The notes below the pieces were generated by a model. The model worked only from the letters and a program-made list of their open reading frames with translations, did not search any database and was not told the origin of the DNA. From NCBI RefSeq assembly GCF_001650715.1, contig NZ_LWQT01000010.1, forward strand, positions 62,001-126,000: a stretch of DNA of 64,000 bases, written 5' to 3'. How positions within the stretch are numbered: the first letter of the stretch is position 1; the number at the start of each line of letters is the position of its first letter. The translations under genes and the position numbers were made by a program. This DNA comes from Paramagnetospirillum marisnigri (GTDB lineage Bacteria; Pseudomonadota; Alphaproteobacteria; Rhodospirillales; Magnetospirillaceae). Of this stretch, positions 8,485 to 50,608 are shown piece after piece.

Positions 8485-8494
8485 GCTACTTCGA

Positions 8495-8596: not shown

Positions 8597-8605
8597 CAAG
8601 ACGCC

Positions 8606-9193
8606 TCAGCCGCCCTTCACCCGGCTGGTCAGGTCCGGGCCGGAACGGCGGCGCATGGCGACTTCGCGCCTTGCGTCGGCATGCTGGGCCTCGCGCAGGG
8701 CTTCCTCGATGGAATTGATATGGGCCTCGGCGGCCTGGCGCGCCAGGGCCGGATTTCTGGCTTCGACCGCCTTCCAGATGGCCTGGTGCTGGCGCAGGAA
8801 GCCGTCGCGCACGCCGCGCCTGCGATAGAGGTCGGAGCGGTCGTAGAACACGCCGCCCTTCAGCATCTCGAATACGCGCCGCATCACATGGGTCATCACC
8901 AGATTGTGGGCGGATTCGTAGATGGCCAGATGGAATTCGGCATCGGCGGCGGCTTCCTGGCTGGGGTCGTCCAGGGCATGGGCGCGCTCCATGGCATCCA
9001 GGCAGGCGCGCAGGCGGGCCAGATCGGCGGCCGAGGCCCGCTCGGCCGCCAGGGCGGCGGCGCTGCCCGCCATGACGCGGCGGAATTCCAGATAGTCATA
9101 GGCGGTATGGGGATGGGCCTGCAGCAGCCGGGACAGCGGGTCGCTGGCGGGCTCTGGGGATGGGGCGGCAACTGGTGGGGTGTTTCGGCTCAT
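8606..9193 (-). CDS. FCD-domain protein lacking the GntR winged-helix domain
   Basis: A 195-residue protein (from ATG 9193) made almost entirely of an FCD effector domain. It aligns well with the FCD half of the GntR regulator at 11238-12023: YDYLEFRRVMAGSAAALAAE against FDYLEFRRFVEGSAAYYAAL, FHLAIYESAHNLVMTHVMRRV against LHLAVYEASHNLVMLHIMRSL, and DRSDLYRRRGVRDGFLRQHQAIW against NRAKLYQRQGVRELLLEQHRAIY. Only about 24 residues precede the alignable linker (DPLSRLLQAHPHTAYDYLEF), so the usual N-terminal HTH is absent. Extending to ATG 9277 adds MISRCKWKKSRTYFSGLAEP, which is not an HTH. The FCD metal/ligand residues (Asp, His, His) look retained. It could bind lactate or pyruvate and modulate the full-length paralogue. 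Confidence 0.75.
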   Translation of the reverse strand: MSRNTPPVAAPSPEPASDPLSRLLQAHPHTAYDYLEFRRVMAGSAAALAAERASAADLARLRACLDAMERAHALDDPSQEAAADAEFHLAIYESAHNLVMTHVMRRVFEMLKGGVFYDRSDLYRRRGVRDGFLRQHQAIWKAVEARNPALARQAAEAHINSIEEALREAQHADARREVAMRRRSGPDLTSRVKGG

Positions 9194-9300
9194 GGAGCCA
9201 GGATAGCCCCAGCCCAATGGCTCGGCCAATCCGGAAAAATAGGTACGACTCTTTTTCCATTTACATCGAGATATCAAATCGTATATCCAGCAAGAATGTT

Positions 9301-9319
9301 TGGTAAAAAAGTTTGACCA
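9301..9319. promoter_or_regulatory. Putative lactate-regulon operator upstream of lactate permease
   Basis: TGGTAAAAAAGTTTGACCA is the most symmetric of the three 19-bp sites (TGGTnAAA nnn TTTGACCA). It lies 51 bp before the permease start codon and also upstream of the divergent FCD gene, so one site could control both. Confidence 0.6.
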
Positions 9320-9369
9320 TTGGCGCCGGAGCCCCGGGTTCCGCCGCCCAGATCGAGAGGGGAGGAAAC

Positions 9370-35161: not shown

Positions 35162-35246
35162 AGGCCGGCGCGGCCTGGGTGAGCTTGTGAGACGGTAGGG
35201 TATCTGCCATGCTTCCCTCGTCTCCACTCGTCTCGTATTGGAAGCA

Positions 35247-36326
35247 ATGGCTCCTCCTATTACGTTCGTGCCGCCGAAGCATCCCGACCTCGTCGCCTTG
35301 GAGGAATTGCTCCAGGAAAGTCGGATGCATAGCCGCTACGCCAATTTCGGGCCGGTCTCCAGGCGCCTTGGGGCGGAGCTCCATCGACGGCTTGGCCATG
35401 GGGATGGGCGAGATTGCGCCGCCTGCGCCAGTGGTACGGTGGCCTTGACCGCCGCGGCCGGGACGCTGGCGGTGACGGCGGGGCGTCCGCTGCGCTTGGT
35501 CGGCAGCGCCTTCGGCTTCTTCTCCTCGGCCATCGGATGTCTACACCAGGGACATCTGCTGGACTGCGGTCCCGACGGGTTGCTGGACCTAGCGGCGGTG
35601 GAAGCCATGGACCCCGACGACTGGGACTGTCTGGTCTATACCAACACCTTTGGCCTTTATCATGATTTCAGGGCGGTTTTCGCCTTGTGCGCCCGACTGG
35701 GCAAGTCGCTGATACTCGACAACGCGTCCGGGTTCGGCGTGATCTCGGCCGCGAACCTGCCCGCGGAGGCGGCGGAGGTGGAGTGGATCGAGACCTTCAG
35801 CTTTCACCACACCAAGCCCTTTGGCCTGGGGGAGGGCGGGGCGGCGCAGATGGCTGCCGGGCTTCGGCCGGTGTTTGACGCCATTCTCAATTTTGGAGTC
35901 GGGCTGCCGCAAGAGTTTCGCCGCTATTTCGGCAATGGCAAGATTTCCGATATCGCCGCCGCCGCGATTCTTGCCCGGGTCCAGTCGTCCGAGCAGTGGA
36001 GCGGCGCCTATGTGGAGCAGGCGGCCCGCGTAGTCGCCCTGGGCCGGTCGGTGGGATACGGCGTTCTGGTGGAGCCGGGGGCGCCAGGGCAGGTTCCCGC
36101 CCATGTGGGGCTGCTGGCGCCGGGAGCGCTTTCCGTCGCCGAACTGGCCAATCCCGTGGTCAATCTGGGGAAATATTACGTTCCGCTGGGTGGGCGGGAA
36201 TTTGTCAATTCCTGGCGCCTTTACGACCGGATGGTCAATGTCCCGACCCATCCGGGAATGGCCGAACCGAGCGACGGTGAGTTGCGCGCCTGCCTGGAAG
36301 CGGTGCTGGCCCGCAGTGGGACGTGA
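35247..36326 (+). CDS. DegT/DnrJ/EryC1-family PLP aminotransferase
   Basis: A 359-residue PLP enzyme of the sugar aminotransferase family. Key segments: YANFGPVSRRLGAELHRRLG at the N-terminus, a phosphate-binding CASGTVALTAA, LILDNASGFG with the cofactor Asp, and SFHHTKPFGLGEGG containing the Schiff-base Lys (about 190). DegT enzymes usually aminate keto-sugar nucleotides such as those leading to viosamine or bacillosamine derivatives. The start is uncertain (ATG 35247, or the TTG at 35238). WbqC follows after only 3 bp, suggesting a common transcript and related work on an amino sugar that may then be N-acylated. Confidence 0.82.
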   Translation: MAPPITFVPPKHPDLVALEELLQESRMHSRYANFGPVSRRLGAELHRRLGHGDGRDCAACASGTVALTAAAGTLAVTAGRPLRLVGSAFGFFSSAIGCLHQGHLLDCGPDGLLDLAAVEAMDPDDWDCLVYTNTFGLYHDFRAVFALCARLGKSLILDNASGFGVISAANLPAEAAEVEWIETFSFHHTKPFGLGEGGAAQMAAGLRPVFDAILNFGVGLPQEFRRYFGNGKISDIAAAAILARVQSSEQWSGAYVEQAARVVALGRSVGYGVLVEPGAPGQVPAHVGLLAPGALSVAELANPVVNLGKYYVPLGGREFVNSWRLYDRMVNVPTHPGMAEPSDGELRACLEAVLARSGT

Positions 36327-36329: not shown

Positions 36330-36995
36330 ATGCGCATCGCCGTGATGCAGCCCTATTTCCTGCCCTATCTGGGATACTTTCGTCTGTTCGATGTGGACCT
36401 GTTCGTGGTCTATGACTGCGTCCAGTTTCCTCGTCGGGGCTGGGTTCACCGCAATCAGCTGCGTAGCGATGGCGGGTCGCTGTCCTGGCTGACCCTGCCG
36501 CTGGCCAAGTCGGCGCGCGAGGCATCCATCCAATCCCTGGCCTTTGCCGAGGGGGCGGAAACCGCCATGGCCGAGCGGGCGCGACCGTTTGGCGCCTTGC
36601 GCGCCCCCCGTACCGAAGCTTCCGCCCGGCTGGCCGAGGAGGTGATGCGGCCGACCGCGACGCCAGTGGATTACATTCTTGGCCTGTTGCTTCGGGCCGC
36701 GTCCGGTCTGGGGCTGTCTCCGGCCGTGCAGCGCTCAAGCTCCCTTGGCCTTGGCAACGAGTTGCGGGGCCAGGACCGTATCTTGGCAATCTGCAAGCAT
36801 TTTGGCGCCGACGACTACGTCAATGCCCCCGGTGGCCGGGCACTCTATGACGTGGAACGGTTCCGCGGCCAAGGTGTGCGGCTGCGTTTCCTTTCAGACT
36901 ACCGGGGTGATTTCGGGTCAATCCTGCAACGCCTCGATGATCACGAGCCGAGGGACTTGCGGCGGGAGTTGGCGGACAATCTCGTCTTGGAGTGA
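36330..36995 (+). CDS. wbqC: WbqC-like family protein
   Basis: A 221-residue protein that starts MRIAVMQPYFLPYLGYFRLF and continues FVVYDCVQFPRRGWVHRNQL, the signature of the WbqC family. These proteins occur in O-antigen and flagellin-glycan clusters, usually beside DegT aminotransferases, and are thought to act as N-acyl or N-glycyl transferases, though the chemistry is poorly defined. Here the gene follows the DegT gene after 3 bp and precedes an acyl carrier protein gene by 68 bp, which would fit an acyl transfer role. No signal or membrane segments are present. Confidence 0.88.
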   Translation: MRIAVMQPYFLPYLGYFRLFDVDLFVVYDCVQFPRRGWVHRNQLRSDGGSLSWLTLPLAKSAREASIQSLAFAEGAETAMAERARPFGALRAPRTEASARLAEEVMRPTATPVDYILGLLLRAASGLGLSPAVQRSSSLGLGNELRGQDRILAICKHFGADDYVNAPGGRALYDVERFRGQGVRLRFLSDYRGDFGSILQRLDDHEPRDLRRELADNLVLE

Positions 36996-37063
36996 AGGCG
37001 CTTGTGACGGCTCGGGTGTTATGGTGATGTCATGACACAGGCTTCTTGTGAGGAGAAAGAGGA

Positions 37064-37297
37064 TTGGATCCGCTTGTCGGCCTGATTTCCGAAATACTGA
37101 GAGTGCCGCCTGCCGCGGTGGTGGACGACATGGCCATGGTGGATGTGGAGACCTGGGATTCGCTGCGTCACCTGGAACTGGTGGTCGGGATCGAGCAGTT
37201 GTTCGGCATCGACCTCACCTCCGACGAGATCGTGACCATGGTCAGCATCGGGCGGATTCGCGCCGTGCTGGCGGTCCGGGGGGTATCGGGACCATGA
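37064..37297 (+). CDS. Free-standing acyl/peptidyl carrier protein
   Basis: A 77-residue acidic four-helix carrier protein with the phosphopantetheine site DSLRHLELV (Ser33). It begins with TTG at 37064; AGGAGAAAGAGGA sits directly upstream and no in-frame ATG precedes the first conserved residues. It is too divergent to be the housekeeping fatty-acid AcpP. Its stop overlaps the ATG of the SDR gene (ATGA at 37294-37297), so the two are translationally coupled. With the adenylation enzyme encoded downstream it forms a loading pair that would hold an activated amino or hydroxy acid for attachment to a sugar. Confidence 0.88.
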   Translation: MDPLVGLISEILRVPPAAVVDDMAMVDVETWDSLRHLELVVGIEQLFGIDLTSDEIVTMVSIGRIRAVLAVRGVSGP

Positions 37298-38028
37298 AGC
37301 TCGACGGGGCCAGGATGGTTGTCGCCGGGGGCGGTGGTTGCCTGGGAAGCGCCATCGTCGCGGCGCTGCTGGCCGCCGGTGCCCGTGTCGCCGTGCTGGA
37401 TCGGGTGGAAGGGGCGGCGGCCGGGGAAGCCCTTCGCCTGGTCTGCGATCTGGCCGAGCCATCATCCGTGGCGGCGGCGCTGGTCGAGGTCGAGACCGCG
37501 TTGGGCGGGCCGGTCCAGGGGCTGGTCAACGCCGCCGGACATATCCGCAGCATTCCCCTGGTCAATGTGTTCGGCGGCGCCGAGCGCAGCCATGCCCTGA
37601 GTGCATGGGACGACATCCTGCGCGCCAATCTCACCACCGCTTTCGTTACCACCGCCGCCGTGGCGGACCGCATGGTTGCCACCAGGACGCGTGGCGCGGT
37701 GGTGTCGCTGGGGTCCATCGCGGCGGGGGGTAATCCGGGGCAGGGTGCCTATGCCGCCGCCAAGGCGGGGCTGGCCGCCGCCTCCGCCGCCTGGGCCAGG
37801 GAGTTGGGAACGCTCGGACTGCGCTTCGTGGTCATCGAGCCGGGCTTCATCGACACGCCCTCGACCCGGGCCGCCCTGACCGAGGCCCAATTGGAGGAGT
37901 GGCGGCGCCGGGGACCGCTGCGGCGGTTGGGGACGCCGGAGGACGTGGCCGAGACGGTGCTGCACGCTCTCCGTTGCGATTACCTGACCGCACAGACCGT
38001 CCAGGTGGCGGGGGGATTGTCCGTCTGA
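37294..38028 (+). CDS. Short-chain dehydrogenase/reductase
   Basis: A 244-residue classical SDR. The nucleotide-binding motif is VAGGGGCLGSAI (10-21), with NAAG at 79-82 and the catalytic Ser141, Tyr153 and Lys157 (SLGSIAAGG...GQGAYAAAK). The C-terminal PEDVAETVLHAL and QVAGGLSV segments match FabG-like enzymes. The Asp at 36 (VLDRVEG) suggests NAD preference. It overlaps the carrier protein gene by 4 nt and precedes the adenylation gene by 17 bp, so it may reduce the carrier-bound acyl group or produce its precursor. Confidence 0.88.
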   Translation: MKLDGARMVVAGGGGCLGSAIVAALLAAGARVAVLDRVEGAAAGEALRLVCDLAEPSSVAAALVEVETALGGPVQGLVNAAGHIRSIPLVNVFGGAERSHALSAWDDILRANLTTAFVTTAAVADRMVATRTRGAVVSLGSIAAGGNPGQGAYAAAKAGLAAASAAWARELGTLGLRFVVIEPGFIDTPSTRAALTEAQLEEWRRRGPLRRLGTPEDVAETVLHALRCDYLTAQTVQVAGGLSV

Positions 38029-38045
38029 CCTGAGGGAGAAACCGC

Positions 38046-39605
38046 GTGGGGGAGGCGGGAGGATATCACTGGTCGTTGGGTCATGCCTTTCTGGCGGTGG
38101 CCCGTGCGCATACCAACGACACCGCCTTGGTCTTGGCCGATGGCGGCCAGGTCAGCTATGGCGCGTTGGCGGCGCGTGCCCTTCGCATTGCCGCGATCCT
38201 AGCCGAGGAGGGCGTGGCGCCGCGTGGCGTGGTGGCGCTGCGTAACGGAAAATCCCCCACCGGCTATGCCGCCATGCTGGCTTGCCTGATGCTGGGGGCG
38301 GCCTATGTCAATCTCGACGAGTTGAATCCTGTCCTGCGCCTGACCCGGATTCTGGAAACCTGCCGCCCGAGCCTGCTGGTGGCCGATGGCGAATCCGAGG
38401 CGGCGGTGACCGAGGCGGCGTCCGCCCTCGGCCTGCGGGTGCTGAACTTGGCCGCCCCGGAATTGGCGGGCCGCCTGGACCAGGCGCCCACGGCCGTTCC
38501 CGCCGCGCTGGATCAGGTCCACGGCGGCCTTCCCGCCTATATCATGTTCACCTCCGGCTCCACCGGCTTTCCCAAGGGCGCCGCCATATCCCATGCCGCC
38601 GTGCTGAATTTCGTCCAGTGGAGCCAGACCACTTTCGGCATCGGTCCCGGCGACATACTGACCAACCTCAACCCCCTGCATTTCGACAATTCGGTTTTCG
38701 ACGTCTATTCGGCCCTGTTCAACGGTGCCGCTCTCGCCCCGGTGGCCCGCGATCTATTGCGTGATCCCCGCGCCGCGGTCGAGACGGTGGAGCGGGCGGG
38801 CTGCACCGTCTGGTTCTCGGTGCCGTCGCTGCTGATCTATCTGGTGAGCCTGAAGGCGATCAGGCCGGGCTCGCTGGCCAGCCTGCGGACGGTGGTGTTC
38901 GGCGGCGAGGGCTATCCGGTGCCGGAACTGTCCCGGCTGCGGCGGCTGTTGGGTGATGGCCCCCGCTTGGTCAATGTCTATGGCCCCACCGAATGCACGT
39001 GTATCTGTTCCGCCCATGAGGTCGGCGCCGCCGATCTGGCTTCCGCTCGGGGCCTGCCGCCGCTGGGGCGCATCGCTCCCAATTTCGGGGCGCTGATCCT
39101 GGATGGTGACGGGCCGGTCACCGAGGGCGAGGTGGGGGAGCTGTGCCTGCTGGGGCCGCAAGTGGGGCTGGGCTATGTCAACGATCCCGAGCGAACCGCC
39201 GCCGCCTTCGTTCCCAACCCGCTGAACCCGGTCTGGCCCGAGACCATGTACCGCACCGGCGATCTGGTCCGGGTCGAGGGTGGAGCGCTCTATTTCGTCG
39301 GGCGCAAGGACAATCAGGTCAAGCACCAGGGCTATCGCATCGAGTTGGAGGAGATCGAGGCGGCGCTGGCGGCGCTGGATGCCGTGGAGCGGGCGGCGGT
39401 GGTCTATCGTCGGCAGTCCTCCACCCACGGGCATCTGGTGGCCTTCGTGGTCGGCGGCGGGCCCGATGGCGAGGCCGGGCTGCGGGCCGCGTTGCGTGCC
39501 CGGCTGCCCGACTACATGATTCCCAATCGCTTCGAAATCGTGGCCGAGCTGCCGCTCAACACCAACGGCAAGGTCGACCGGACCCGCTTGCGGGACGGGG
39601 ACTGA
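38046..39605 (+). CDS. AMP-forming adenylation enzyme (DltA/NRPS A-domain-like)
   Basis: A 519-residue stand-alone adenylation enzyme beginning at GTG 38046 with GAGGGAGA upstream. Adenylation core motifs are visible: A3 IMFTSGSTGFPKG (about 167-179), NPLHFDNSVFDVYSALFNGAAL, A5 VNVYGPTECTC, A7 YRTGDLVR, A8 GRKDNQVKHQGYRIELEEIE and A10 NTNGKVDR with the catalytic Lys. It resembles DltA and amino-acid-activating NRPS domains more than fatty acyl-CoA ligases. It would activate a small amino or carboxylic acid and load it on the carrier protein encoded at 37064. Substrate pocket residues would need modelling to name the acid. Confidence 0.88.
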   Translation: MGEAGGYHWSLGHAFLAVARAHTNDTALVLADGGQVSYGALAARALRIAAILAEEGVAPRGVVALRNGKSPTGYAAMLACLMLGAAYVNLDELNPVLRLTRILETCRPSLLVADGESEAAVTEAASALGLRVLNLAAPELAGRLDQAPTAVPAALDQVHGGLPAYIMFTSGSTGFPKGAAISHAAVLNFVQWSQTTFGIGPGDILTNLNPLHFDNSVFDVYSALFNGAALAPVARDLLRDPRAAVETVERAGCTVWFSVPSLLIYLVSLKAIRPGSLASLRTVVFGGEGYPVPELSRLRRLLGDGPRLVNVYGPTECTCICSAHEVGAADLASARGLPPLGRIAPNFGALILDGDGPVTEGEVGELCLLGPQVGLGYVNDPERTAAAFVPNPLNPVWPETMYRTGDLVRVEGGALYFVGRKDNQVKHQGYRIELEEIEAALAALDAVERAAVVYRRQSSTHGHLVAFVVGGGPDGEAGLRAALRARLPDYMIPNRFEIVAELPLNTNGKVDRTRLRDGD

Positions 39606-39621: not shown

Positions 39622-40290
39622 TTGGCATCCGTGGTTATCTTTGGAACCGGCAAGATCGCGCAGGTGGCCCATGCCTGCCTGTCGGACGAGCACGATGTGG
39701 TGGGGTTCACCGTGGACCGCGCCTATCTGGACCCGTCGCCGCCAACCCCGCTGCCGGTGGTGGCGTTCGACGACGTCGTCGAACGCTTTCCGCCCGCCGA
39801 GGTCCGGATGTTCGTCGCCATGGGCTACCATGATCTCAACGCCGTCAGGGCGGCACGCCTCGCCCAGGCCGCCGCCCTGGGCTATGGCTTCGTCAGTTGG
39901 GTTTCACCCCGGGCGTCCATCGGCAAGGGAGTGGAGATTGGGGCCAACTGCCTGGTGATGCCCCAAGCCTCGGTGCAGCCCTTCGCCCGCCTGGAGGACG
40001 GAGTGTTCGTCTGGGACAATGCCGTCATCGGCCATCATGCCCATATCGGTGCCCATTGCTGGATCACCGCCGGGGCGGTGGTGGCCAGTTCGGTGGGCTT
40101 GGGGGCGGAATGCTTTCTCGGCGCCAATGCCGTCATTGTCAACGAGGTGACGGTGGGGCGGCGCTGCCTGATCGGTGCGGGGGCCTTGGTTTCCGCCGCG
40201 GCGGCCGACAACGGAGTCTATGTCGCCCCGGGCACCGAGCGGCTTCGTCTGGATAGCGATCGCTTTCTTAAGATCAGCAAGATGCGCTGA
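39622..40290 (+). CDS. NeuD/PglD-type sugar O/N-acyltransferase
   Basis: A 222-residue protein that starts with TTG 39622 behind GGAGGATCGCC. The N-terminal Rossmann-like part (VVIFGTGKIAQVAHACL) is followed by a left-handed beta-helix of hexapeptide repeats (SIGKGVEIGANCLVMP, VIGHHAHIGAHCWITAGAVV, GLGAECFLGANAVIVNEVTVGRRCLIGAGALV) with a His typical of the active site (GHHAHIG). NeuD/PglD enzymes acetylate sialic acid or UDP-amino sugars. Here the acyl donor could be acetyl-CoA or the carrier-bound acid made by the three preceding genes. Confidence 0.87.
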   Translation: MASVVIFGTGKIAQVAHACLSDEHDVVGFTVDRAYLDPSPPTPLPVVAFDDVVERFPPAEVRMFVAMGYHDLNAVRAARLAQAAALGYGFVSWVSPRASIGKGVEIGANCLVMPQASVQPFARLEDGVFVWDNAVIGHHAHIGAHCWITAGAVVASSVGLGAECFLGANAVIVNEVTVGRRCLIGAGALVSAAAADNGVYVAPGTERLRLDSDRFLKISKMR

Positions 40291-40354: not shown

Positions 40355-41428
40355 ATGGCCGCGCAGACCATCTTGTTTTTTCCCGCAGGCATGATGGAAG
40401 TCGCCGGTGAAGCGGTGGCCGCTCAACGCCGGGGCGAGCAGGTCATCGGGGCGTCATCCTTGGATCATGACCCGGATCGGGTCAAATTCCGCGACTGGGA
40501 GTGGCTGCCCTTCGTGTTTGCCCCAGAATTCGACGCCCAGTTCGCCGCGCTGGTTGCGCGGCGGCACGTTACCCGTGTCGTCAGCTTTCATGGCGCGGTC
40601 TGGGCGCATCTGGCCCGTTTGCTGCCGAGCCTGCCCAATCCGCCGGAGTTACATCCGCCACGCTCTCCCATATCGGCCCGAGAGGGTGGTCAGGGGCGCG
40701 TCTGGCGCGAGGATGCCGAGTATCTGGCCGAGGCGTGGCTAGGCCTCGCCGTGCCGTCTCTTCCGTCTGGACTTGAGTTTGATGGATTGGCCGATACCGC
40801 AGCCCGAATTCAAGGGGAGTCCAATGCGTTGAAGCTGGCAGCCCTGGTGGCGGTGGCCTCGGTGGCGCCCCTCGGCGACGTGGTGGAAATCGGTACGTTG
40901 TACGGCCGATCCGCCTTTGTCCTCGGATGGCTGGCTCGTCGCTATAGTCTGGGGCCGGTGCTGTGTGTCGATCCCTGGCGGGCCGAGGCCGCCCGGCAGG
41001 CCCCAGCCTTTCTAGCGGAGCTGTCCCAGGGCTGGGACATGGACCCTATTTTCGAAGGCTTTCGGCGGAATTTGAGCCCCTGCTTTCACGGCACCCTCAA
41101 TTACCAGCGCCAGACATCGAGGCAGGTCCGGGGCGATTATGGTCCAGGCTGGCAGGTGACGACGCCGGAATTTGGTGCCACCAGCTACACCGGCCGGATC
41201 TCCATTTTGCATATCGACGGCAATCATGATTTCGACTGCGTCCAATCCGATGTGGCAGACTGGCTTCCCCTAGTGAGTCCTGGCGGTTGGCTGGTGCTTG
41301 ACGACTATTTCTGGCCATTCGGCGATGGGCCTCGCCGGGTGGGGGATCGTCTCCTGGCCGAAGGTGGCTTCGATTTTGCGGCGGTGATCGCTAAGGCGCT
41401 GTTCCTGCGGCGATCGGCTTGTGAGTGA
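40355..41428 (+). CDS. Class I SAM-dependent methyltransferase with unknown N-terminal domain
   Basis: A 357-residue protein from ATG 40355 (GAGAGGGGACC upstream). The C-terminal half (about 155-350) is a Methyltransf_24-like fold: VVEIGTLYGRSAFVLGWLARR, VLCVDPWR, ISILHIDGNHDFDCVQSDVADWLPLVSPGGWLVLDDYFWPFGDG. The N-terminal 150 residues (ILFFPAGMMEVAGEAVAAQRRGEQVIGASSLDHDP) look like a nucleotide- or acyl-binding domain I do not recognise. The frame is open to 40175 but overlaps the NeuD gene. Likely role: methylation of a glycan or of its acyl group. Confidence 0.78.
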   Translation: MAAQTILFFPAGMMEVAGEAVAAQRRGEQVIGASSLDHDPDRVKFRDWEWLPFVFAPEFDAQFAALVARRHVTRVVSFHGAVWAHLARLLPSLPNPPELHPPRSPISAREGGQGRVWREDAEYLAEAWLGLAVPSLPSGLEFDGLADTAARIQGESNALKLAALVAVASVAPLGDVVEIGTLYGRSAFVLGWLARRYSLGPVLCVDPWRAEAARQAPAFLAELSQGWDMDPIFEGFRRNLSPCFHGTLNYQRQTSRQVRGDYGPGWQVTTPEFGATSYTGRISILHIDGNHDFDCVQSDVADWLPLVSPGGWLVLDDYFWPFGDGPRRVGDRLLAEGGFDFAAVIAKALFLRRSACE

Positions 41429-41497
41429 GGTGCAACCCCAGACCCATCAGGCCTGATCAGGCGCGGACATCCGGTGAACCGAGGAGGAATTTTCATC

Positions 41498-42295
41498 ATG
41501 TCTCGTAATCCGCTTGAGATATTCTCCGGTGCCGAGGTGATGGAGCAGTACCGTCTGCGCGAGGCCGCCTATTGGCAGGGAATCCAGGAGGTCGTTGCCG
41601 ATGCCGGGCTGGGGTTGAAGGATGTCCTTCAGAACGTTCCGGCGTTCTGGCGTCGGCGCGACGTGCCGCGTTTTCTCGCCAATTACGAGCTGTTCAAGAT
41701 GGTTGTCGATCTTCCAGGTTCGGTGGCCGAGGTGGGGGTGTTCCGCGGGGCCGGGCTGATGACCTGGACACATCTGCTGGAGACATTCATTCCTGGAGAC
41801 CGGCTGCGGCGAGTCTTCGGTTTTGATCACTTCCAGGGATATGACGGTTTTTCCGAGCAAGACGGTGACGCCCGGCAATGGCTGTCCGCTCACCAGGGCG
41901 GCGACTTGATGTCGGCTGACCGCCGTCTGGTGGACCGTCTGCTGGAAATTCATGATGCGGATAGTTTCTGTCCGGGGGTTCCGCGTGCCCTATTGATAGC
42001 CGGTGATGTCACCGAGACATTGCCGCGTTTCGTGGCCGAGGCCGATGGCGTGCGCTTTTGCCTGATTCATCTGGATGTGAATGTTCATCAGGCGGTGCGG
42101 GCGGCGCTTGATGCGCTGTATCCTCGCCTAGTTCCAGGGGGCATCGTCGCGCTGACCGCCTATGGCAGCCCTCCCTGGGAGGGGGAGGCGTCGGCGGTGG
42201 AGCAATATTTCGGAGATAATGGCCTGCCTATGCCGGCCATGGCGACCTTGCCGTTCTCTCCCATTCCCAGAGCCTATTTCAGAAAGCCGCTTTAG
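41498..42295 (+). CDS. TylF/MycF-family methyltransferase
   Basis: A 265-residue class I methyltransferase with GAGGAGGAA upstream of ATG 41498. The sequence VAEVGVFRGAGLMTWTHLLE, RVFGFDHFQGYDGF, RALLIAGDVTETLPRF, RFCLIHLDVNVHQAVRAALDALYPRLVPGGIVALTAYG matches TylF-type macrocin/sugar O-methyltransferases, including the metal-site Asp in HLDVNVH. Such enzymes methylate sugar hydroxyls. The stop codon TAG (42293-42295) coincides with the TA target of the MITE inserted immediately after it; the element starts with GG, so the stop is unchanged. Confidence 0.82.
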   Translation: MSRNPLEIFSGAEVMEQYRLREAAYWQGIQEVVADAGLGLKDVLQNVPAFWRRRDVPRFLANYELFKMVVDLPGSVAEVGVFRGAGLMTWTHLLETFIPGDRLRRVFGFDHFQGYDGFSEQDGDARQWLSAHQGGDLMSADRRLVDRLLEIHDADSFCPGVPRALLIAGDVTETLPRFVAEADGVRFCLIHLDVNVHQAVRAALDALYPRLVPGGIVALTAYGSPPWEGEASAVEQYFGDNGLPMPAMATLPFSPIPRAYFRKPL

Positions 42296-42560
42296 GTTCT
42301 GTCCCCATAAACCTCGCGAGAGGCGCTGCTGGAGAAAATGGCGGGATGGTAGGAGAAACGCGATGGGCATAGTGGGGCTATGGACGAGCGTTTCGACGCA
42401 CCAGTCCGCCATTTTCTCAGCAGCCCGAAGGGACGCGGGCCTTTTGGCGGCCGGGTTCGTTGCTCGTCGCTTGTGGACGGCCGGCCCACGGCGCGCCAAG
42501 CGCCTGCCCGGCCTCCAAAATTCCTCGCGTCGCATCCGTGACGTTTATGGGTACAGGACC
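42295..42560. mobile_element. 266-bp MITE-like element with 18-bp terminal inverted repeats
   Basis: The ends GGTTCTGTCCCCATAAAC and GTTTATGGGTACAGGACC are inverted copies with 16 of 18 matches, and the element is flanked by TA on both sides (42293-42294 and 42561-42562), consistent with a TA target duplication. An inner inverted repeat pairs 42326-42346 (GGAGAAAATGGCGG core) with 42405-42423. No transposase is encoded, so it is a non-autonomous element mobilised in trans, probably by an IS630- or IS5/IS427-type transposase. It separates two methyltransferase genes without disrupting either. Confidence 0.8.
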
Positions 42561-42575
42561 TAGGAGAGACCGACA

Positions 42576-43586
42576 ATGCGCGCTGGCGAGGAGACATTCT
42601 ACCGAGACCCAGAGACGCTTGCCCCCTTGCGGCTGTCTGATCCGGTGATGGTCGGTGGCGAGATCACCTCGGGAGTTCTGCTCGGTTCCGGCGGAAACCG
42701 CTTCGATATCCGTGACGGCCTTCCCAATCTTGTTTTTCCTTTCGAGTTGCCCCGCGCCGATCGTGACGCGCTGCAGGTCTACGAGGATCGGGCCGAGGTC
42801 TATGACCGCTATCTTCCCCTGACATTCAGCACCTATGGCGAGGACGAGCAAGCGGTTCGCAATGCCATGATCGATAAGCTGAATCTACGTCCGGATTCCG
42901 TGGTGCTGGAAACAGGAGCCGGAACCGGACGCGATTCCGAGATCATCGCCCGACGGCTCGGCCCGGATGGGCGCCTTTACATCCAGGACCTGTCGCCATC
43001 CTTCCTGGCCAGGAATATCGAGCGCATGCGTGGCGTCGACGCCAAGGTCGAACCGGCCTTGGCCAATGGCTATTACCTGCCTTTCGCCGACAACAGTTTC
43101 GACGCCTGCTACCATTTCGGCGGCATCAATGCGTTCGGCGACATCAAGCGGGCCTTCGCGGAAATGGCGCGCGTCACCAAGCCTGGCGGCAAGGTCGTGG
43201 TGGGTGATGAAAGCATGCCGCCATGGCTGCGCGACACGGAGTTCGGCAAGATTCTGATGAACTCCAATCCCGAATTCAGATATCCCCTGCCGCTGGACAA
43301 GCTGCCCATCGAGGCGCGCAAGACCCGGCTGGAATGGATCATTGGCGGCGTCTTCTATGTGTTCGACTTCGAGGTCGGCGAGGGTGAACCCGGCGCCGAC
43401 TTCGATTTCGCGATCCCCGGAGCACGAGGCGGAACCCATCGGACCCGCTATTTCGGGCAGCTGGAGGGCGTCACCCCCGAGGCCAAGCAATTGGCCCAGC
43501 AGGCCAGGGCCAAGATGAACAAGAGCATGCATCAATGGCTGGACGAGGTGATTCGCGAGGCGGCACGCCGTGATCTCGGAGACTAG
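42576..43586 (+). CDS. SAM-dependent methyltransferase (Methyltransf_11 type)
   Basis: A 336-residue protein from ATG 42576 with GGAGAG upstream. The N-terminal 60 residues (YRDPETLAPLRLSDPVMV...FDIRDGLPNLVFP) look like a small Trm112-like beta domain. The methyltransferase fold follows: VVLETGAGTGRDSEIIARRL (motif I), LYIQDLSPSFLARNIERM, ANGYYLPFADNSFDACYHFGGINAFGD and KPGGKVVVGDESM. The C-terminal 100 residues form an extra domain. Length and layout match ubiE/COQ5-like methyltransferases found in glycan clusters. The small-molecule or glycan substrate is unknown. Confidence 0.82.
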   Translation: MRAGEETFYRDPETLAPLRLSDPVMVGGEITSGVLLGSGGNRFDIRDGLPNLVFPFELPRADRDALQVYEDRAEVYDRYLPLTFSTYGEDEQAVRNAMIDKLNLRPDSVVLETGAGTGRDSEIIARRLGPDGRLYIQDLSPSFLARNIERMRGVDAKVEPALANGYYLPFADNSFDACYHFGGINAFGDIKRAFAEMARVTKPGGKVVVGDESMPPWLRDTEFGKILMNSNPEFRYPLPLDKLPIEARKTRLEWIIGGVFYVFDFEVGEGEPGADFDFAIPGARGGTHRTRYFGQLEGVTPEAKQLAQQARAKMNKSMHQWLDEVIREAARRDLGD

Positions 43587-43605
43587 AATCGGGACACTAG
43601 ACACG

Positions 43606-44541
43606 ATGCGATGGGAGCGGCAGGGACTGCTGTTTGCGCCCTCTGGCCAGGGCGGATGGATGAACAGCCATGCGCAGGTGCCAACCGCCCTGCTGCTGGG
43701 CGATGTGTTGCGCCTGTATTTCGCCTCGCGTCCTTATCGCTCCCTCAGCCTTCCCACCTTCATCGACCTGGATGCACACGACCCGTCCCGCATCCTTCAT
43801 GTCAACGACACCCCGCTGTTGGAGCCTGGGCCGCCCGGCACTTTCGATGAACACGGCATCATGCCTTCGGCGGCGGTTCGGGTCGGCGGGTTGGTCTACC
43901 TCTATTACAGTGGTTGGAGTCGCTCGACCCAGGTGCCCTACATCAATACCACCGGCCTTGCGGTGAGCGAGGACGGCGGAAGGCGTTTTCGGCGGATGTT
44001 CGATGGGCCGGTGCTGGGGCGCGGCCCGCACGAACCCTATTCGGCGACCTCGCCCTGCATCCTGATCCATGAGGGAATCTGGCATATGTGGTACTGTTCG
44101 GGAGCCCTGTGGCAGGCCGAGGGTGACGCATTTGAGCCAGTCTACCACATCAAGCATGCCGCCTCCGTCGATGGGATGCATTGGCGTCCGGATGCCGGAC
44201 GGTTTTGCATTCCGCCCCACCATCCGTTGGAAGCCAGCACGCGGCCGACCATTGCCCGCATGGGTGACCGTTGGCATCTCTGGTTCTGCCATCGCGACAG
44301 CCGTGATTTTCGCGATGGGGTGGGGGCCTACCGGTTGGGCTATGCCTGGTCGACGGATTTGACAACCTGGTGCCGCGAGGACTGGAACGCGGGTCTGGTC
44401 CCCGCCGACCATGGCTGGGACAGCATCATGGTGGCCTATCCCGAGGTGGTGGAAACCCCTGGTGGTTGGGTGATGTTCTATAACGGCAATGGATTCGGCG
44501 TCGATGGCGTGGGATGGGCGCGGCTTGCCGCTAAGGCGTAA
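43606..44541 (+). CDS. Glycoside-hydrolase-like beta-propeller protein
   Basis: A 311-residue protein that I start at ATG 43606 (MRWERQGLLF), because related proteins begin with this stretch followed by a SHAQVPT motif; the frame is open to GTG 43570, overlapping the previous gene. Repeated blades with Trp/Tyr-rich strands (GLVYLYYSGW, GIWHMWYCSG, RWHLWFCHRDSRDF, GGWVMFYNGNGFG) indicate a five-bladed propeller like GH43/GH32 hydrolases. Such proteins are common in surface-glycan clusters but their catalytic status is uncertain. No signal peptide is present, so it is cytoplasmic and may act as a sugar-binding or phosphorylase-like enzyme. Confidence 0.68.
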   Translation: MRWERQGLLFAPSGQGGWMNSHAQVPTALLLGDVLRLYFASRPYRSLSLPTFIDLDAHDPSRILHVNDTPLLEPGPPGTFDEHGIMPSAAVRVGGLVYLYYSGWSRSTQVPYINTTGLAVSEDGGRRFRRMFDGPVLGRGPHEPYSATSPCILIHEGIWHMWYCSGALWQAEGDAFEPVYHIKHAASVDGMHWRPDAGRFCIPPHHPLEASTRPTIARMGDRWHLWFCHRDSRDFRDGVGAYRLGYAWSTDLTTWCREDWNAGLVPADHGWDSIMVAYPEVVETPGGWVMFYNGNGFGVDGVGWARLAAKA

Positions 44542-47086
44542 TTCCCAGCCGATCGAGCGCCCCGCGCACCTCGTCGAGAGGGACATGGAAGTCGGCATGC
44601 TTGTCGGCCTTGCCCCGGGCCTCGATCACCGGGCCGCAGACCAGATAGGGGCGGCAGCCGATATCGGTCATCATGGTGCTCCAGGTGTTGGAATTGGAGA
44701 CGAACCCCTGACTCAGGGTCAGGACCGGAGTTCCGGGGCGGCAGACTAGGCCGTTGGCGAGGCACGAGCCGTGGACCGCGATCACAATGTCGGCACCGTG
44801 GAATAGCGCCAGTTGTTCCGCCAGGGGCAGATCCTCCGCCGCCAGGCACAGGAATCCCCTTTCCTTGAGAAAGTCCATGATCTCGTCCTGGTTCGTCAGC
44901 AGCCTTCGGCCATAGGCGGGCTTGCGCAAGACGAATATCCGTTTGGGGGAGCCAGGGGATGGCGGACTTACATGGCGGAGCAGTCGGTCGCGCATGAACA
45001 GCGTCGATGCCGTGGGCATAACCAGATACCCGGAATCCATCATGAAGTCGGGGCCAAAGCCATGGGGCCACCATGCATGATTGGGCGCGACCCATAGGCG
45101 CTGGACCCGGACGTCCTGGTCTGGTTCGACGAAGATGATGTTCCTCGGCTCGTCCATCACCATCTTAAGGGCGTCCAAATGGCTGGCAGGCATGCCCGCA
45201 TCCACCAGAACCGGGACATCGGCGGCGATGTTCGCCTGTGACAGGAAATGCCAGCGGGGAAGATATTCGTGCATCCAGTGGCCATAGTGGTGGGTTCGGG
45301 CTCCCATCATCATGATCGCTTCGGCAACCCGCAGGGAGTTGTTGGACCGAGCCTCGACCATGACGCGCCGACCGCTGCGGGCCGTGACCATGGGGTCATG
45401 CTCCAGGCTGTGGGGATTATCCCTCGGGTCGGCGACCACGTCATGCAACGCGATACCCTCATTTAAGAAGATGAATTCGCAGCGGTGGAACAGCCGGACC
45501 CATGGGATTTCCGCTACATATCCCTCGTTGATGGGAGCCGAGGCTCCTTCGGCGATAAGTTCATCCTTCCAGTTGCGCAGCGTCGGCGGATAGTCGGCCA
45601 CGGTCGGGAGGGACAAGGTGCGATAGGGCGCGCCGGTGTCCAGGCACCATTCCTTGACGCCGCGCAGGATGCGGGGGAAGTGGAGCGCATTGGCGGGCCA
45701 GATGCCCGCAACCATGGTGATGAGGCCGATCTTGTAGCTCGCCAGCAGCCGGGACAGGACCAGCCGCCGCAAGCGCTTCGTGACTTCCCCCAAGATACCG
45801 GTGCCGGCGATGCGCCGCAGCAGCACCAGATCCTTGTCGCAACCAAGGGCGATGATGAATGCCGAGGCCGCAAGATCAATCTGCCCCGTTGAATTGAGGA
45901 TCATGGCGGCGGCGTAAATATCGGGGGCGTTGCCACCGGCCATGGAAGAGGCTTCCGCCAGCATTGCCGTCGCCTCATCGGCCTGGCCGCGATCAACGGC
46001 CTCCACCGCTTGGCGGACCAAGGGGGTCGGGTCGGAGGCGGTGGAATGGCCGATGACCCTCTGATGCGCCGCTCCGCCTGGGTTGAACATGCAGTTGTCG
46101 CATTGCTCGGGGGCGCCATCCAGGTACGACTCCAGCCAGGTGCTGATCGGTCCGGCGCTCCAGTTGTCGGAGAACGAGCGGTCGACCAGGGAGGAGTTCT
46201 GGTAATGATGGGTTTCATGCATGCCGCAGCACGGGGTGATATAGCCATCGACGGTGACCGTCGGGGCGAGGAACGGCATGGTGCAACGCCCCCCCGCCAA
46301 TCCGAAGAATGACGCTGGAGTATAGGTGATGTCCAAAGACGGGTAGGTCCGGTTGGCCGACTCGACATAGGAGGCCAAGCTTTCCTGCTGTTCCAGACTC
46401 AGCCCGGCGGAATGGGGGGCGGACCTATCCGAGCGCTGGTTCTGAGCCGGCAGGATCAGGACCCGGATCTCGCCAATTCGTGACAACTTCTCGATCGTCG
46501 ACGGGATGTCGTCGACATTGTTGGAACTTGCCACCATGGTGACGCTGATCGGGAAGATACGTGAAATCATCCCGATATTGGCGTAAAGCGTATCCACATT
46601 GGTGCCGCTGCGGCACCGCTGCACCACCACGGGGTCGAGCGAATCCACCGAGATGGTGACACTGTCCAGCCCCTCGGCGGCCAGCCGCTTCCAATAGTCC
46701 TGGTCTCCATTCAAGGCGTTGGTGGTGAAGCGGACACTGTCGAACTTCGTCATTTCCCTGATCGTCGCGATCATGGACGGCAGTTGGGGATGAAGAGTCG
46801 GCTCGCCGATGCCGTGAAGGACGAGAATTCCGGCCGGGGGCAGGTGATCCAGGATCGTCGCGAACTGACCCATGCCGATATGCCGAGAAGTCCAGCGCCG
46901 TTGTTCAACCTCTTGGGTGCGGAAGCATTCCGGGCAGCGCAGGTTGCAGGCGGTGGTGATTTCGATATAGCACTGCCGCAATCGGCTTGGTTTCGACAGC
47001 AGGCGATTGCGGATATCCGGGTTGCTCAGTCCTCGCCCGCTCCCCAGGGTGTCTGATACGAACTGGTCTCGATCGGGAAAAGACAT
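44531..47086 (-). CDS. Radical SAM/SPASM - GT61 glycosyltransferase fusion protein
   Basis: An 851-residue two-part protein from ATG 47086. Residues about 35-340 form a radical SAM enzyme: CNLRCPEC (Cys47, Cys51, Cys54), HGIGEPTLHP, FTTNALNG, and a SPASM-like C-part with cysteines in GRCTMPF, TPCCGMH and EQCDNCMF. A helical repeat-like linker follows (about 350-450). Residues about 500-850 match GT61/DUF563 glycosyltransferases: GARTHHYGHWMHEYLPRWHFL, RIFVLRKPAYGRRLLTNQDEI, and HGADIVIAVHGSCLANGLVCRPGTPVLTLS. It converges on the propeller gene, overlapping its end by 11 bp. The radical enzyme may modify the acceptor or sugar that the transferase handles. The frame is open to 47236, where no ribosome site is visible. 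Confidence 0.82.
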   Translation of the reverse strand: MSFPDRDQFVSDTLGSGRGLSNPDIRNRLLSKPSRLRQCYIEITTACNLRCPECFRTQEVEQRRWTSRHIGMGQFATILDHLPPAGILVLHGIGEPTLHPQLPSMIATIREMTKFDSVRFTTNALNGDQDYWKRLAAEGLDSVTISVDSLDPVVVQRCRSGTNVDTLYANIGMISRIFPISVTMVASSNNVDDIPSTIEKLSRIGEIRVLILPAQNQRSDRSAPHSAGLSLEQQESLASYVESANRTYPSLDITYTPASFFGLAGGRCTMPFLAPTVTVDGYITPCCGMHETHHYQNSSLVDRSFSDNWSAGPISTWLESYLDGAPEQCDNCMFNPGGAAHQRVIGHSTASDPTPLVRQAVEAVDRGQADEATAMLAEASSMAGGNAPDIYAAAMILNSTGQIDLAASAFIIALGCDKDLVLLRRIAGTGILGEVTKRLRRLVLSRLLASYKIGLITMVAGIWPANALHFPRILRGVKEWCLDTGAPYRTLSLPTVADYPPTLRNWKDELIAEGASAPINEGYVAEIPWVRLFHRCEFIFLNEGIALHDVVADPRDNPHSLEHDPMVTARSGRRVMVEARSNNSLRVAEAIMMMGARTHHYGHWMHEYLPRWHFLSQANIAADVPVLVDAGMPASHLDALKMVMDEPRNIIFVEPDQDVRVQRLWVAPNHAWWPHGFGPDFMMDSGYLVMPTASTLFMRDRLLRHVSPPSPGSPKRIFVLRKPAYGRRLLTNQDEIMDFLKERGFLCLAAEDLPLAEQLALFHGADIVIAVHGSCLANGLVCRPGTPVLTLSQGFVSNSNTWSTMMTDIGCRPYLVCGPVIEARGKADKHADFHVPLDEVRGALDRLGITP

Positions 47087-47263: not shown

Positions 47264-48526
47264 ATGGCGAACGGGTGGGGAGTCTTGGTGCCGGAGAACT
47301 CGGAGACGCTGGCAGAAGTGTTGGCTGTGTGGAGGCAGGGGAAGCGCGATGAAGCCCGCGTCATGCTGCAGCATCACCTGGACGCCGATCCGGAGGATGC
47401 GGCGGCCTGGGCGCTGTATGGCAAGCTTTTGCTGGACATGGACGAGACCGAGGTGGCCCGCATCGCCTTGGAGGAAGCCTTGTTCCTGGCTCCGGACGAC
47501 CTCGGAGCAGCCTGTGCTCTGGCCGAAGTTGAGCGCCGCCAGGGGGAGTTGGTGGCGGGCCTGGCCCGCTTGGGCGAGGTTCTGAAGTTCCTGCCGGAAC
47601 ATCCAGAGGCCAGTCGGCTGGCCCGGATTATGGTTCTCCAGCGTTTCGCCTTGGGAGATGCGGCCGCAGTCCTTCCGATCACAGCGGATCAGGCGGTGCC
47701 GGTGGCCCGGGCCTGCTCGATCATCGGCAGGGCGCTGAGCGAGGCCCATATGCGCAAGGAAGCGGTCTGCGCCTTTCAACTGGCGGCCCAGGCACTGCCG
47801 GATGATTACAATAGTCTCAACGATCTGGCCTGCGCCTTGCTGCGGTCCATCCCCGCCATTGATGGCGGGCACGAGGAATCCAACTCCATGTTAGATGCGC
47901 GCATGTTGCGTGCGCTGAGCAATGCCCTGATGTCCTATCTGCGCTGCATCGAGATCGCCCCGAAATCCGCCTTGGCCTATAAAAATCTGGGATCACTGCT
48001 GACAAATTTGGCCCGTCGCGGGATTTATGATGCCGAGGGGGCGGCGGCCTATACCCAGATCAAGGCTTTTCAACTGGAACCCGAGGATTACTCCCAGCGC
48101 CTACTGGCTGCCAGCCTGCTGTTCGACCTGAAGCAGTTGGAAGCCTCGGCGGCGCTGTACTCGGGCGAGAACATCATTCCGGGCGGCGACGAGGAGGAAG
48201 ATGGCGGGCGCTGGCGCCTGGATGTCTTTGTCAAAGGCTTCACCCAGGGAATTGATAAGATCGAGGAGCAGATTCTGGTCTCGGTCGATCCGGCGCGACG
48301 GGCCGAGGCGCTGATTCGCGTCGGCGACATCCTGGTGGGGTTGGGCATGGAGGGCGAGGCGGTGCTGTTCTTCGCCCTGGCGCTCCAGGACGAGCCTGAC
48401 AACATCCATTGCCGCGAGGCGGTTCGGGCCGCCATGTCCTCGCGGCGGCTGCTGCACGAGGCCATCGCCGTCAGCACCGGCGACCGCTCGATCCTGCCGC
48501 CGCCCCTGGTGATGGCGTGGCCGTAG
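47264..48526 (+). CDS. TPR-repeat protein
   Basis: A 420-residue soluble helical protein. At least four tetratricopeptide repeats are recognisable in the N-terminal half (LAVWRQGKRDEARVMLQHHLDADPEDAAAWALYGKLLLDMDETEVARIALEEALFLAPDD) and more around residues 215-270 (SYLRCIEIAPKSALAYKNLGSLL). A last repeat is at the C-terminus (GEAVLFFALALQDEPDN). There are no catalytic motifs and no signal peptide. It is divergent from the radical SAM-GT61 gene and 102 bp upstream of the B12-type radical SAM gene. TPR proteins in such clusters usually scaffold glycosyltransferases or flagellin. Confidence 0.78.
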   Translation: MANGWGVLVPENSETLAEVLAVWRQGKRDEARVMLQHHLDADPEDAAAWALYGKLLLDMDETEVARIALEEALFLAPDDLGAACALAEVERRQGELVAGLARLGEVLKFLPEHPEASRLARIMVLQRFALGDAAAVLPITADQAVPVARACSIIGRALSEAHMRKEAVCAFQLAAQALPDDYNSLNDLACALLRSIPAIDGGHEESNSMLDARMLRALSNALMSYLRCIEIAPKSALAYKNLGSLLTNLARRGIYDAEGAAAYTQIKAFQLEPEDYSQRLLAASLLFDLKQLEASAALYSGENIIPGGDEEEDGGRWRLDVFVKGFTQGIDKIEEQILVSVDPARRAEALIRVGDILVGLGMEGEAVLFFALALQDEPDNIHCREAVRAAMSSRRLLHEAIAVSTGDRSILPPPLVMAWP

Positions 48527-48628
48527 AAGGATTTTTTTGGCCGAGGTATTGGCCTCTTGTTTGCTTTTCATTGGCACCCAAGTAGTGTAGGCGCCCGAAA
48601 TCACTCCTTTCTGATCGGTGGACATGGC

Positions 48629-50608
48629 ATGACGGGCTTGAAGCGAGTTTACTTCAACGAATTCAACGTTCTGATGGGCGATGCTGCTTATCTGCCGCTG
48701 GTCTCCGGCCTGCTTCACGCCCATGCCCTGACTTCGGAGAAGGTGCGGGCCACCTACGAATTCGCGCCCTATCTGTTCCATATCGATTCGCCCGCCAACA
48801 TCCTGGCCCATTACGACAAGCCTCCTGCGGTGGCGGCGTTCTCGCTGCTGATGTGGAACGAGCAGTTGAACCTGCACATCGCGGCTGAGATCAAGCGGCG
48901 CCATCCCGACTGCGTCATCGTGTTCGGCGGCGCCCAGGTGCCGCACCACCCCGAGGAGTTCTTCGCGACCTATCCCTTCGTCGACGTTGCGGTGCGCGGC
49001 GAGGGCGAGGAGGCCTTCACCGAGATTCTCGAGCGCCTCGCCGATGGCGCCGATCTCGACAATCTGGCCGGGGTCAGCTGGCGGGCGCCCGATGGGACCA
49101 TCCACGCCGCCGAGAACGAGCGCGAGTTCCAGCGCGACCTCGACGTCTATCCGTCGCCCTATCTGGAAGGGCTGTATGACGAGCTGATGGCGTCGCGACC
49201 CGACGTCACCTTCCAGGCCATCGTCGAGACCAATCGCGGATGCCCCTTCCACTGCACCTTCTGCTATTGGGGCAAGGGCGGGCTGTCGCGCAAATACCGC
49301 TATCACGGCCTGGACCGGGTGTCGGCCGAGATCGTCTGGATGGGCGAAAACAAGATCCGCTATGTCTTCAACGCCGATTCCAATTTCGGCATGAACAAGC
49401 GCGACCGCGAGATCGCCGACCTGCTGGTGGAAACCAAGCGCAAATACGGTTTCCCCGAGAAGTTCCGCACCTGCTACGGCAAGAACACCGACGACAAGAT
49501 CTTCGAGATCGGCAACCTGTTCCACGAGCACCAGCTCGAGAAGGGCATCACCATCAGCTATCAGAGCACCGATCCCACGGTGCAGAAGAACATCAAGCGC
49601 GACAATATCAAGCTGTCGGTGGCGCGCGAGCTGCACCAGCGCTTCAACAAGCTGGATGTGCCAGTCTATACCGAATTGATCATCGGCCTGCCCGGCGAGA
49701 CCGAGGAGACCTGGCGCAAGGGCATCGACGAAATCCTGTCATCGGGCCTGAAGAACCAGTTGTTCATGTATTTCTGCCAGGTCTATCCCAATACCGATCT
49801 GGCCGATCCCGAATATGTGCGCGAACACGGTCTGGTCACCCAGCGGGTGGAACTCAACGAGATTCACGGCTCGGTTCGCCACTCCGACTGGGTGGCGGAA
49901 TACGAGGATCTGGTGGTCACCTCCAGCACCATGCCGCTGGACAGCTGGAAGCGCATGGCCATGCTGTCCTGGATGACCATGCTGATGCACAGCCTGAAGC
50001 TGGGCTTCTTCGTCATGTGCTGGATGCATGAAAAGCTGGGCGTCAGGCATTCCGATTATTTCCAGCGGCTGATCTCGGTGAGCCCCGAGGACGAGGCGCC
50101 CATGCTGTCGGCGCAGTTGGCCCTGTTCCAGGACAAGCTGGGCCGCATCGGCCGGGGCGAGGGCCGGGGCTGCATCCTGCCCGATTGCGGTGTCATCTAC
50201 TGGGATGTGGAAGAGGCTGCCTTCCTGGACCTGTCGCGGGACTTTGGCGCTTTCTACGACGAGTTGGAGCGCCTGACCCGGGGCTATCTCAAGGATCGGG
50301 GTATCGCCTACGATTCCGAGGAATTGGCTGAGGTCTTCCACTATCAGCGCCTGCGCCTGCCCACTCCGGCCGGCAGTCTGGCGGGCCGTCATGGCTTCGC
50401 CCATTCGGTGCCGTCCTATTTCGAGACCTTCTTCGACGATCATCGGGTCGATCTGGCCCGCCGCCCCGAGGTTCTGGTGGTGGAACCGCGCGACTTCGGC
50501 GGCGACCGCGAGCGCTTCGCCCGAGAAACCATCCTGTGGGGCCGCAAGAGCGGCACCATGCTGGCCAAGGCGCGGGTGGCGGAATTGGAAGCCCAACTGG
50601 CGGGCTGA
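48629..50608 (+). CDS. B12-binding-domain radical SAM enzyme
   Basis: A 659-residue enzyme from ATG 48629. Residues 1-150 form a cobalamin-binding-like Rossmann domain (PPAVAAFSLLMWNEQLNLHIAAEIKRRHPDCVIVFGGAQVPHHPEEFF) without the DxHxxG His motif. The radical SAM core has CPFHCTFC (Cys205, Cys209, Cys212), and VFNADSNFGMNKRDREIADLL, ITISYQSTDPTVQKNIKRDNI and TELIIGLPGETEETWRKGI. A long C-terminal region (about 400-659) is helical and unassigned. Members of this class perform methylation or other radical rearrangements. The position at the end of the glycan cluster suggests modification of a sugar or lipid carrier. The ORF is open from 48557. Confidence 0.82.
   Translation: MTGLKRVYFNEFNVLMGDAAYLPLVSGLLHAHALTSEKVRATYEFAPYLFHIDSPANILAHYDKPPAVAAFSLLMWNEQLNLHIAAEIKRRHPDCVIVFGGAQVPHHPEEFFATYPFVDVAVRGEGEEAFTEILERLADGADLDNLAGVSWRAPDGTIHAAENEREFQRDLDVYPSPYLEGLYDELMASRPDVTFQAIVETNRGCPFHCTFCYWGKGGLSRKYRYHGLDRVSAEIVWMGENKIRYVFNADSNFGMNKRDREIADLLVETKRKYGFPEKFRTCYGKNTDDKIFEIGNLFHEHQLEKGITISYQSTDPTVQKNIKRDNIKLSVARELHQRFNKLDVPVYTELIIGLPGETEETWRKGIDEILSSGLKNQLFMYFCQVYPNTDLADPEYVREHGLVTQRVELNEIHGSVRHSDWVAEYEDLVVTSSTMPLDSWKRMAMLSWMTMLMHSLKLGFFVMCWMHEKLGVRHSDYFQRLISVSPEDEAPMLSAQLALFQDKLGRIGRGEGRGCILPDCGVIYWDVEEAAFLDLSRDFGAFYDELERLTRGYLKDRGIAYDSEELAEVFHYQRLRLPTPAGSLAGRHGFAHSVPSYFETFFDDHRVDLARRPEVLVVEPRDFGGDRERFARETILWGRKSGTMLAKARVAELEAQLAG

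Follow-up and report, generated by a model that had tools for sequence, protein, structure and literature searches.

What might a single polypeptide do that carries both a radical S-adenosylmethionine (SAM) enzyme and a glycosyltransferase of family GT61? Such a polypeptide is encoded in a 64,000-nucleotide stretch of the Paramagnetospirillum marisnigri genome (contig NZ_LWQT01000010.1, positions 62,001 to 126,000; hereafter the window), in which a preliminary description, made from the letters alone, had placed the two modules in one 851-residue chain at 44531..47086. These coordinates proved right, with the minus strand as the coding one. The reading that we tentatively favor is a two-step glycan-tailoring enzyme, in which the radical SAM half would likely epimerize (or, failing that, oxidize) a sugar and the GT61 half would extend the chain; here we infer the substrate, the reaction, and the order of the steps. 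The domains are ordinary singly and new in combination, and the fusion belongs to a larger family, apparently unstudied, that joins a radical SAM module to glycosyltransferases or other tailoring domains. Its parts, including a linker resembling tetratricopeptide repeats (TPRs), are as follows.

44531..47086, minus strand: gene for the fusion of a radical SAM/twitch half, a TPR-like linker, and a GT61 half; single open reading frame, 851 residues
46487..46966, minus strand: Radical_SAM core, residues 41-200 (Pfam, 57.9 bits; cut-off 29.5)
46925..46948, minus strand: C47-x3-C51-x2-C54, predicted ligands of the SAM [4Fe-4S] cluster, identical in 20 of 20 aligned rows
46091..46285, minus strand: twitch domain, residues 268-332, with C268, C286, C329, and C332 as predicted ligands of an auxiliary cluster
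46226..46228, minus strand: extra cysteine C287, proposed hydrogen-atom donor, a cysteine in 45 of 48 family rows
45761..46027, minus strand: TPR-like helical linker, residues about 354-442
44723..45286, minus strand: GT61 Pfam match (Glyco_transf_61, PF04577), residues 601-788 (85.7 bits; cut-off 27)

The fusion is a genuine single reading frame; no frameshift has joined two genes here. The frame runs from an ATG at 47086 to a stop codon ending at 44531 with no internal stops, the alternative minus-strand frames contain 23 and 12 stops, and the plus strand, read across 44531..47086 in the same frame coordinates, is interrupted by stops. In no full 60-codon block does third-position GC content leave the range 0.70-0.92, the blocks of the radical SAM domain, the linker, and the GT61 domain included, and there is therefore no frame change at the junction. 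The preliminary description had named an assembly error or frameshift between two separate genes as what would overturn it. That no second strain with the fusion turned up speaks for such an artifact, yet the stop-free frame and continuous codon-position signal, deep inside a 168-kb contig (at about 106.5-109.1 kb), leave this explanation with hardly any credibility. Where translation starts is uncertain: upstream, at 47236, there is an in-frame TTG, and the same genome's database copy (P0002) has 816 residues against the 851 of the window protein (P0001).

The N-terminal half belongs to the radical SAM superfamily, with a CX3CX2C motif inside a Radical_SAM domain that scores above its cut-off. 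In an alignment of the window protein with 19 relatives, the cysteines beyond the core motif (C268, C286, C287, C329, and C332) are likewise identical in every row; the loss of the radical SAM cysteines among homologs, the other outcome that could have undone the early proposal, is thus not seen. The auxiliary motif reads C268-x12-G-x4-C286, followed by C329-x2-C332. A Pfam SPASM match over residues 268-332 stays under threshold (17.6 bits; cut-off 21.5), and the seven-cysteine SPASM motif, CX9-15GX4C-gap-CX2CX5CX3C-gap-C (PMC6231123; this and the published systems below are drawn on from excerpts), is absent, as no CX5CX3C lies beyond C332 and the next cysteine is residue 416. Four auxiliary cysteines without the seven-cysteine motif mark the domain, from its sequence, as a single-cluster twitch with one predicted auxiliary cluster, and the modeled fold of this half is in keeping with a twitch. 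The module had been called complete, with auxiliary cysteines; its core and these cysteines are present, and a single-cluster twitch takes the place of a complete SPASM domain. The same pattern (C-x12-G-x4-C ... C-x2-C) occurs in all 48 rows of a family set that includes P0001, near-identical rows, and a fragment (P0027), and from which nine own copies or duplicates were excluded (L001, L106, L003, L022, L023, L004, L107, P0002, and P0032). A second cysteine directly after that of GX4C is present in all but three of these rows. Among 28 further family proteins from a second search, 26 have the twitch pattern with the extra cysteine and 2 lack the pattern.

The C-terminal half is a GT61 module, as first described: its Pfam match is far above the cut-off, and its model has the GT61 fold, matching POMGNT2 across residues about 485-851. 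A model of the radical SAM half resembles the folds of MoaA, SkfB, BlsE, and DesII. The two halves were aligned and modeled separately, and the models carry no relative domain arrangement; a joint full-length alignment of radical SAM and GT61 relatives placed GT61 sequences onto the radical SAM half and was hence discarded. Both halves retain the residues of their families. Between them, the linker gave weak BLAST matches only and is too short and divergent for the source of its TPRs to be traced. A search of PHROGs returned weak radical SAM matches only, and no GT41 domain (PF13844) was matched in P0001 to E 1.

How often does this pairing recur? A search of 5.8 billion proteins, in which scoring was confined to the 7,994 candidates with the most words in common, gave 30 matches, and the only one among them with radical SAM and GT61 in one chain was P0002. 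A full-length match was found in 1 of 55 genomes of the taxonomic family and any GT61 in 1 of 17 genomes of the genus, in both cases the window's own. In a class-wide sample, 40 of 385 genomes carry GT61 at E 1e-8; the sole other GT61 open reading frame above 800 residues (G400, 856 residues) had neither CX3CX2C nor a radical SAM profile match within the fetched 4 kb. The radical SAM family itself is sparse, present in at least 3 of the 385 class genomes at E 1e-40 and at least 11 of 317 order genomes at E 1e-50, both counts being lower bounds with five or six candidates scored per genome. A distant radical SAM-GT61 fusion of separate origin could have escaped these searches. The preliminary description knew of no characterized example, and our full-text literature search, which had most subscription journals outside it, agrees: we found no paper on a fusion of this kind, and one excerpt describes radical SAM and glycosyltransferase genes as separate and adjacent, with no fusion (PMC4267127).

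What recurs across genomes is the radical SAM family joined to other partners. In the 48-row set, the partner is GT41 in 30 rows, an N-terminal TPR in 2, and GT61, GT2, and a methyltransferase in 1 each, and 13 rows have none (L031, L037, L045, and L046 by Pfam scan, the other nine by their length). The second search gave 32 matches, 28 of them new, adding GT2, WcbI, sulfotransferase, and six further GT41 partners; ten matches have TPRs and no transferase listed. GT2 fusions are represented by P0036 (nearly the same protein as L043), P0037, and P0038. GT41, GT61, and GT2 are different families, and for this reason, not because of the tree described below, the module must have been joined to them in separate events. 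The partner set, made up of glycosyltransferases and tailoring domains, is the main reason why we think that the radical SAM substrate is a sugar; the methyltransferase and sulfotransferase partners, we infer, also act on sugars. Thus, where the preliminary description left the radical target as protein or sugar, the partner domains favor a glycan. Its proposal that a radical step is coupled to glycosyl transfer gains from the fusions of the same family to GT41 and GT2, and the reaction itself is a prediction from sequence.

Some members of the family depart from the simple two-part layout. P0037 (1093 residues) and P0038 (1068 residues) carry two radical SAM stretches per chain, in the order radical SAM, GT2, radical SAM/SPASM. 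P0039 (651 residues) joins the family to WcbI and P0040 (697 residues) to a sulfotransferase. L037, though listed as stand-alone, holds a radical SAM-GT41 fusion split over two frames (6986-9932). Distant radical SAM modules sit C-terminally in long proteins in P0028 (after an alpha/beta-hydrolase domain), L048, L050, and L081.

In a tree of the radical SAM part, P0001 falls outside the GT41 clade, among TPR-radical SAM proteins and stand-alone members (support 95/87). P0001 forms a long branch, and the approximately unbiased (AU) test does not reject a single clade with GT41 (p 0.253), with GT41 and GT2 (p 0.083), or of GT61 with GT2 (p 0.153); the tree therefore does not show an independent origin of the radical SAM part.

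In the mechanism that we propose, a 5'-deoxyadenosyl radical would arise at the C47/C51/C54 cluster and abstract hydrogen from a carbon of a sugar in a surface-glycan intermediate, either a chain or a nucleotide sugar. Cys287, beside the auxiliary ligand C286, would return hydrogen on the opposite face, giving net epimerization; if Cys287 is not the donor, the auxiliary cluster could instead accept an electron to yield a keto-sugar, as in BtrN. The GT61 half would add the next sugar after the radical step, and the TPR-like linker would bind either the glycan carrier or a partner protein. Epimerization is favored because of the extra cysteine and its precedents, Cys223 of EpeE (PMC8326336) and Cys249 of NeoN (PMC10991966), each a proposed hydrogen donor, with HygY as a further case going by its paper title. 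Dehydrogenation is favored by the likeness to BtrN. A HygY mutant is said to become a dehydrogenase. To our knowledge, sugar epimerases of the HygY and NeoN kind act on assembled oligosaccharides, an analogy that points to the chain more than to a nucleotide sugar as the possible radical substrate.

The glycan reading draws support from the partners found with this radical SAM family (GT41, GT2, methyltransferase, sulfotransferase, and WcbI) and from sugar-type neighbors in the window and in some relatives' loci. The intact frame and domains, the invariant cluster cysteines, the fold matches of both models, and the twitch profile's best PDB match, the aminocyclitol enzyme BtrN, also speak for it. 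Several observations weigh against it. The GT61 pairing is known from one genome. The extra cysteine is weak evidence for epimerization: once the nine ids named above and all gapped rows are removed, 44 of 47 family rows have it, but so do 18 of 40 rows from elsewhere in the comparison. SkfB, a peptide enzyme, is among the best sequence and fold matches, and fold alone does not choose between sugar and peptide. The GT61 model is of modest confidence (predicted local distance difference test score 70.8) and was built from nine sequences. The gene is antiparallel to its plus-strand neighbors, so joint transcription is not implied. Around one relative, L038, the two scanned flanking genes encode a GAF/PAS protein and a GST, whose counterparts at L028 are an asparagine synthase gene and a gene of HlyD type; at neither locus does a glycan gene adjoin the radical SAM gene.

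Three other accounts compete with this one. The architecture could be as we propose with a BtrN-like dehydrogenase as its radical SAM half, which would convert a sugar hydroxyl to a ketone with the auxiliary cluster as acceptor before GT61 acts. BtrN is the best PDB match of the twitch family profile (E 3.5e-5; phmmer with the twitch piece alone gave chance matches only, and BtrN was found through family profiles), the two share the ligand spacing C-x12-G-x4-C, and the four-cysteine cluster of BtrN, a radical SAM dehydrogenase of an aminocyclitol, is a likely electron acceptor (PMC9012708). Against this, BtrN has a phenylalanine where nearly the whole family has the extra cysteine beside C286, and we regard dehydrogenation as unlikely, if worth keeping in view. 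We give somewhat less weight again to the idea that the radical SAM half modifies a protein or peptide, which the GT61 half then glycosylates while the TPR-like linker binds it in the manner of FlmG. SkfB is the top match by sequence and fold, a TPR-like linker is present, and relatives have GT41 and TPR partners; the FlmG TPR domain binds flagellins (PMC7591256), and POMGNT2 structures contain a mannosyl peptide. However, the Pfam matches of the fusion protein up to E 1 include no RRE/PqqD-type domain (a divergent RRE could escape), the family's partners extend to methyltransferase, sulfotransferase, and WcbI, both flagellin genes found in the genome are on other contigs, and just 177 bases separate the fusion gene from its divergent neighbor. 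It is distinctly improbable that chance placed two active enzymes of separate, uncoupled pathways in one chain: the restriction of the GT61 version to one genome would fit, but fusions of the radical SAM family to glycosyltransferases and further tailoring domains recur, and family residues persist in both halves.

A two-step glycan-tailoring enzyme thus remains our preferred reading. A broader form of it, which we consider doubtful, is that of a modular radical glycan-editing family in which a twitch epimerase with Cys287 as donor inverts stereocenters of surface glycans and the GT41, GT2, GT61, methyltransferase, sulfotransferase, or WcbI partner acts on the edited sugar. Antibiotic pathways are the main setting in which radical SAM enzymes are known to act on sugars. 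If the proposal is right, radical sugar chemistry would extend to cell-surface glycans, with the family lying in part within surface-glycan islands; rare sugars could then be reached by oxygen-sensitive routes, and bacterial glycans would be edited in a way not described before. The fusion also offers a physical pair, in which the radical product and the transferase acceptor could be matched in one assay.

Known systems resemble the fusion in parts. Among them are the radical SAM-TPR-GT41 (SPINDLY) fusions, such as that of Magnetospirillum fulvum (L039), which have the same radical SAM/twitch family in the same order of radical SAM, TPR, and glycosyltransferase and are 33-39% identical to the window protein across the radical SAM part; they differ in carrying GT41 instead of GT61, and our literature search found no functional study of them. 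The GT2 fusions named above likewise share the radical SAM family and differ in the transferase. BtrN, of butirosin biosynthesis, is a twitch radical SAM enzyme like the N-terminal half, but it is a stand-alone protein of about 250 residues without TPR or glycosyltransferase. The aminoglycoside epimerases NeoN and HygY, the latter named a twitch enzyme in a paper title, are likened here by their described chemistry only, not by sequence: both are proposed to abstract hydrogen from a sugar carbon and return it from a cysteine. We know of neither HygY nor NeoN as a glycosyltransferase fusion. POMGNT2 is a GT61 enzyme like the C-terminal half, has no radical SAM domain, and in its structures binds a mono-mannosyl peptide acceptor. 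In FlmG, a TPR adjoins a GT-B transferase (PMC7591256); it has no radical SAM domain, is not GT61, and acts on flagellin, whereas the flagellin genes here are unlinked to the fusion gene.

The genes around the fusion in the window are these.

35238..36326, plus strand: DegT/DnrJ/EryC1-type aminotransferase (sugar cluster)
36330..36995, plus strand: WbqC-like protein
37052..37297, plus strand: acyl carrier protein, start codon uncertain (PF00550, 26.1 bits; cut-off 20.8)
37288..38028, plus strand: short-chain dehydrogenase
38046..39605, plus strand: AMP-binding acyl ligase
39622..40290, plus strand: hexapeptide-repeat transferase
40355..43586, plus strand: three methyltransferase genes (MT24, TylF-like, and MT11/25)
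43570..44541, plus strand: 323-residue protein with no Pfam match at E 0.001, convergent with the fusion gene
47264..48526, plus strand: TPR protein, divergent neighbor of the fusion gene
48557..50608, plus strand: B12-binding radical SAM protein

The row of acyl carrier protein, short-chain dehydrogenase, and acyl ligase (37052-39605) probably forms a module that supplies acyl donors for sugar acylation. The 3' end of the gene for the 323-residue protein shares 11 bases with the fusion gene; of the 17 genus genomes, just one, its own, gave a match to this protein at E 1e-20.

We compared 21 family loci from named genomes (L026-L046), scanning the flanking genes in part, and found that an association with polysaccharide genes holds in some loci and is not universal. 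L043 lies near WbqC, a methyltransferase like that of the window, DegT, another radical SAM/SPASM gene, and two TPR-GT41 genes; L031 near WcbI, GSCFA, and a TPR-TylF gene; and L033 near a mannose-1-phosphate guanylyltransferase/isomerase-like gene. A GT4-type gene adjoins the radical SAM gene of L040 (as L125). Relatives of the window's B12-binding radical SAM protein occur at L042, L044, L045, and L046, making five loci with the window. At L028, L029, L032, and L034, where the family member is stand-alone, the next gene is asparagine-synthase-like (Pfam was run on L028, L032, and L034). A further radical SAM/SPASM gene lies shortly before the family member at L043 (4556-5527), L045 (5132-6256), and L126 (2975-4135).

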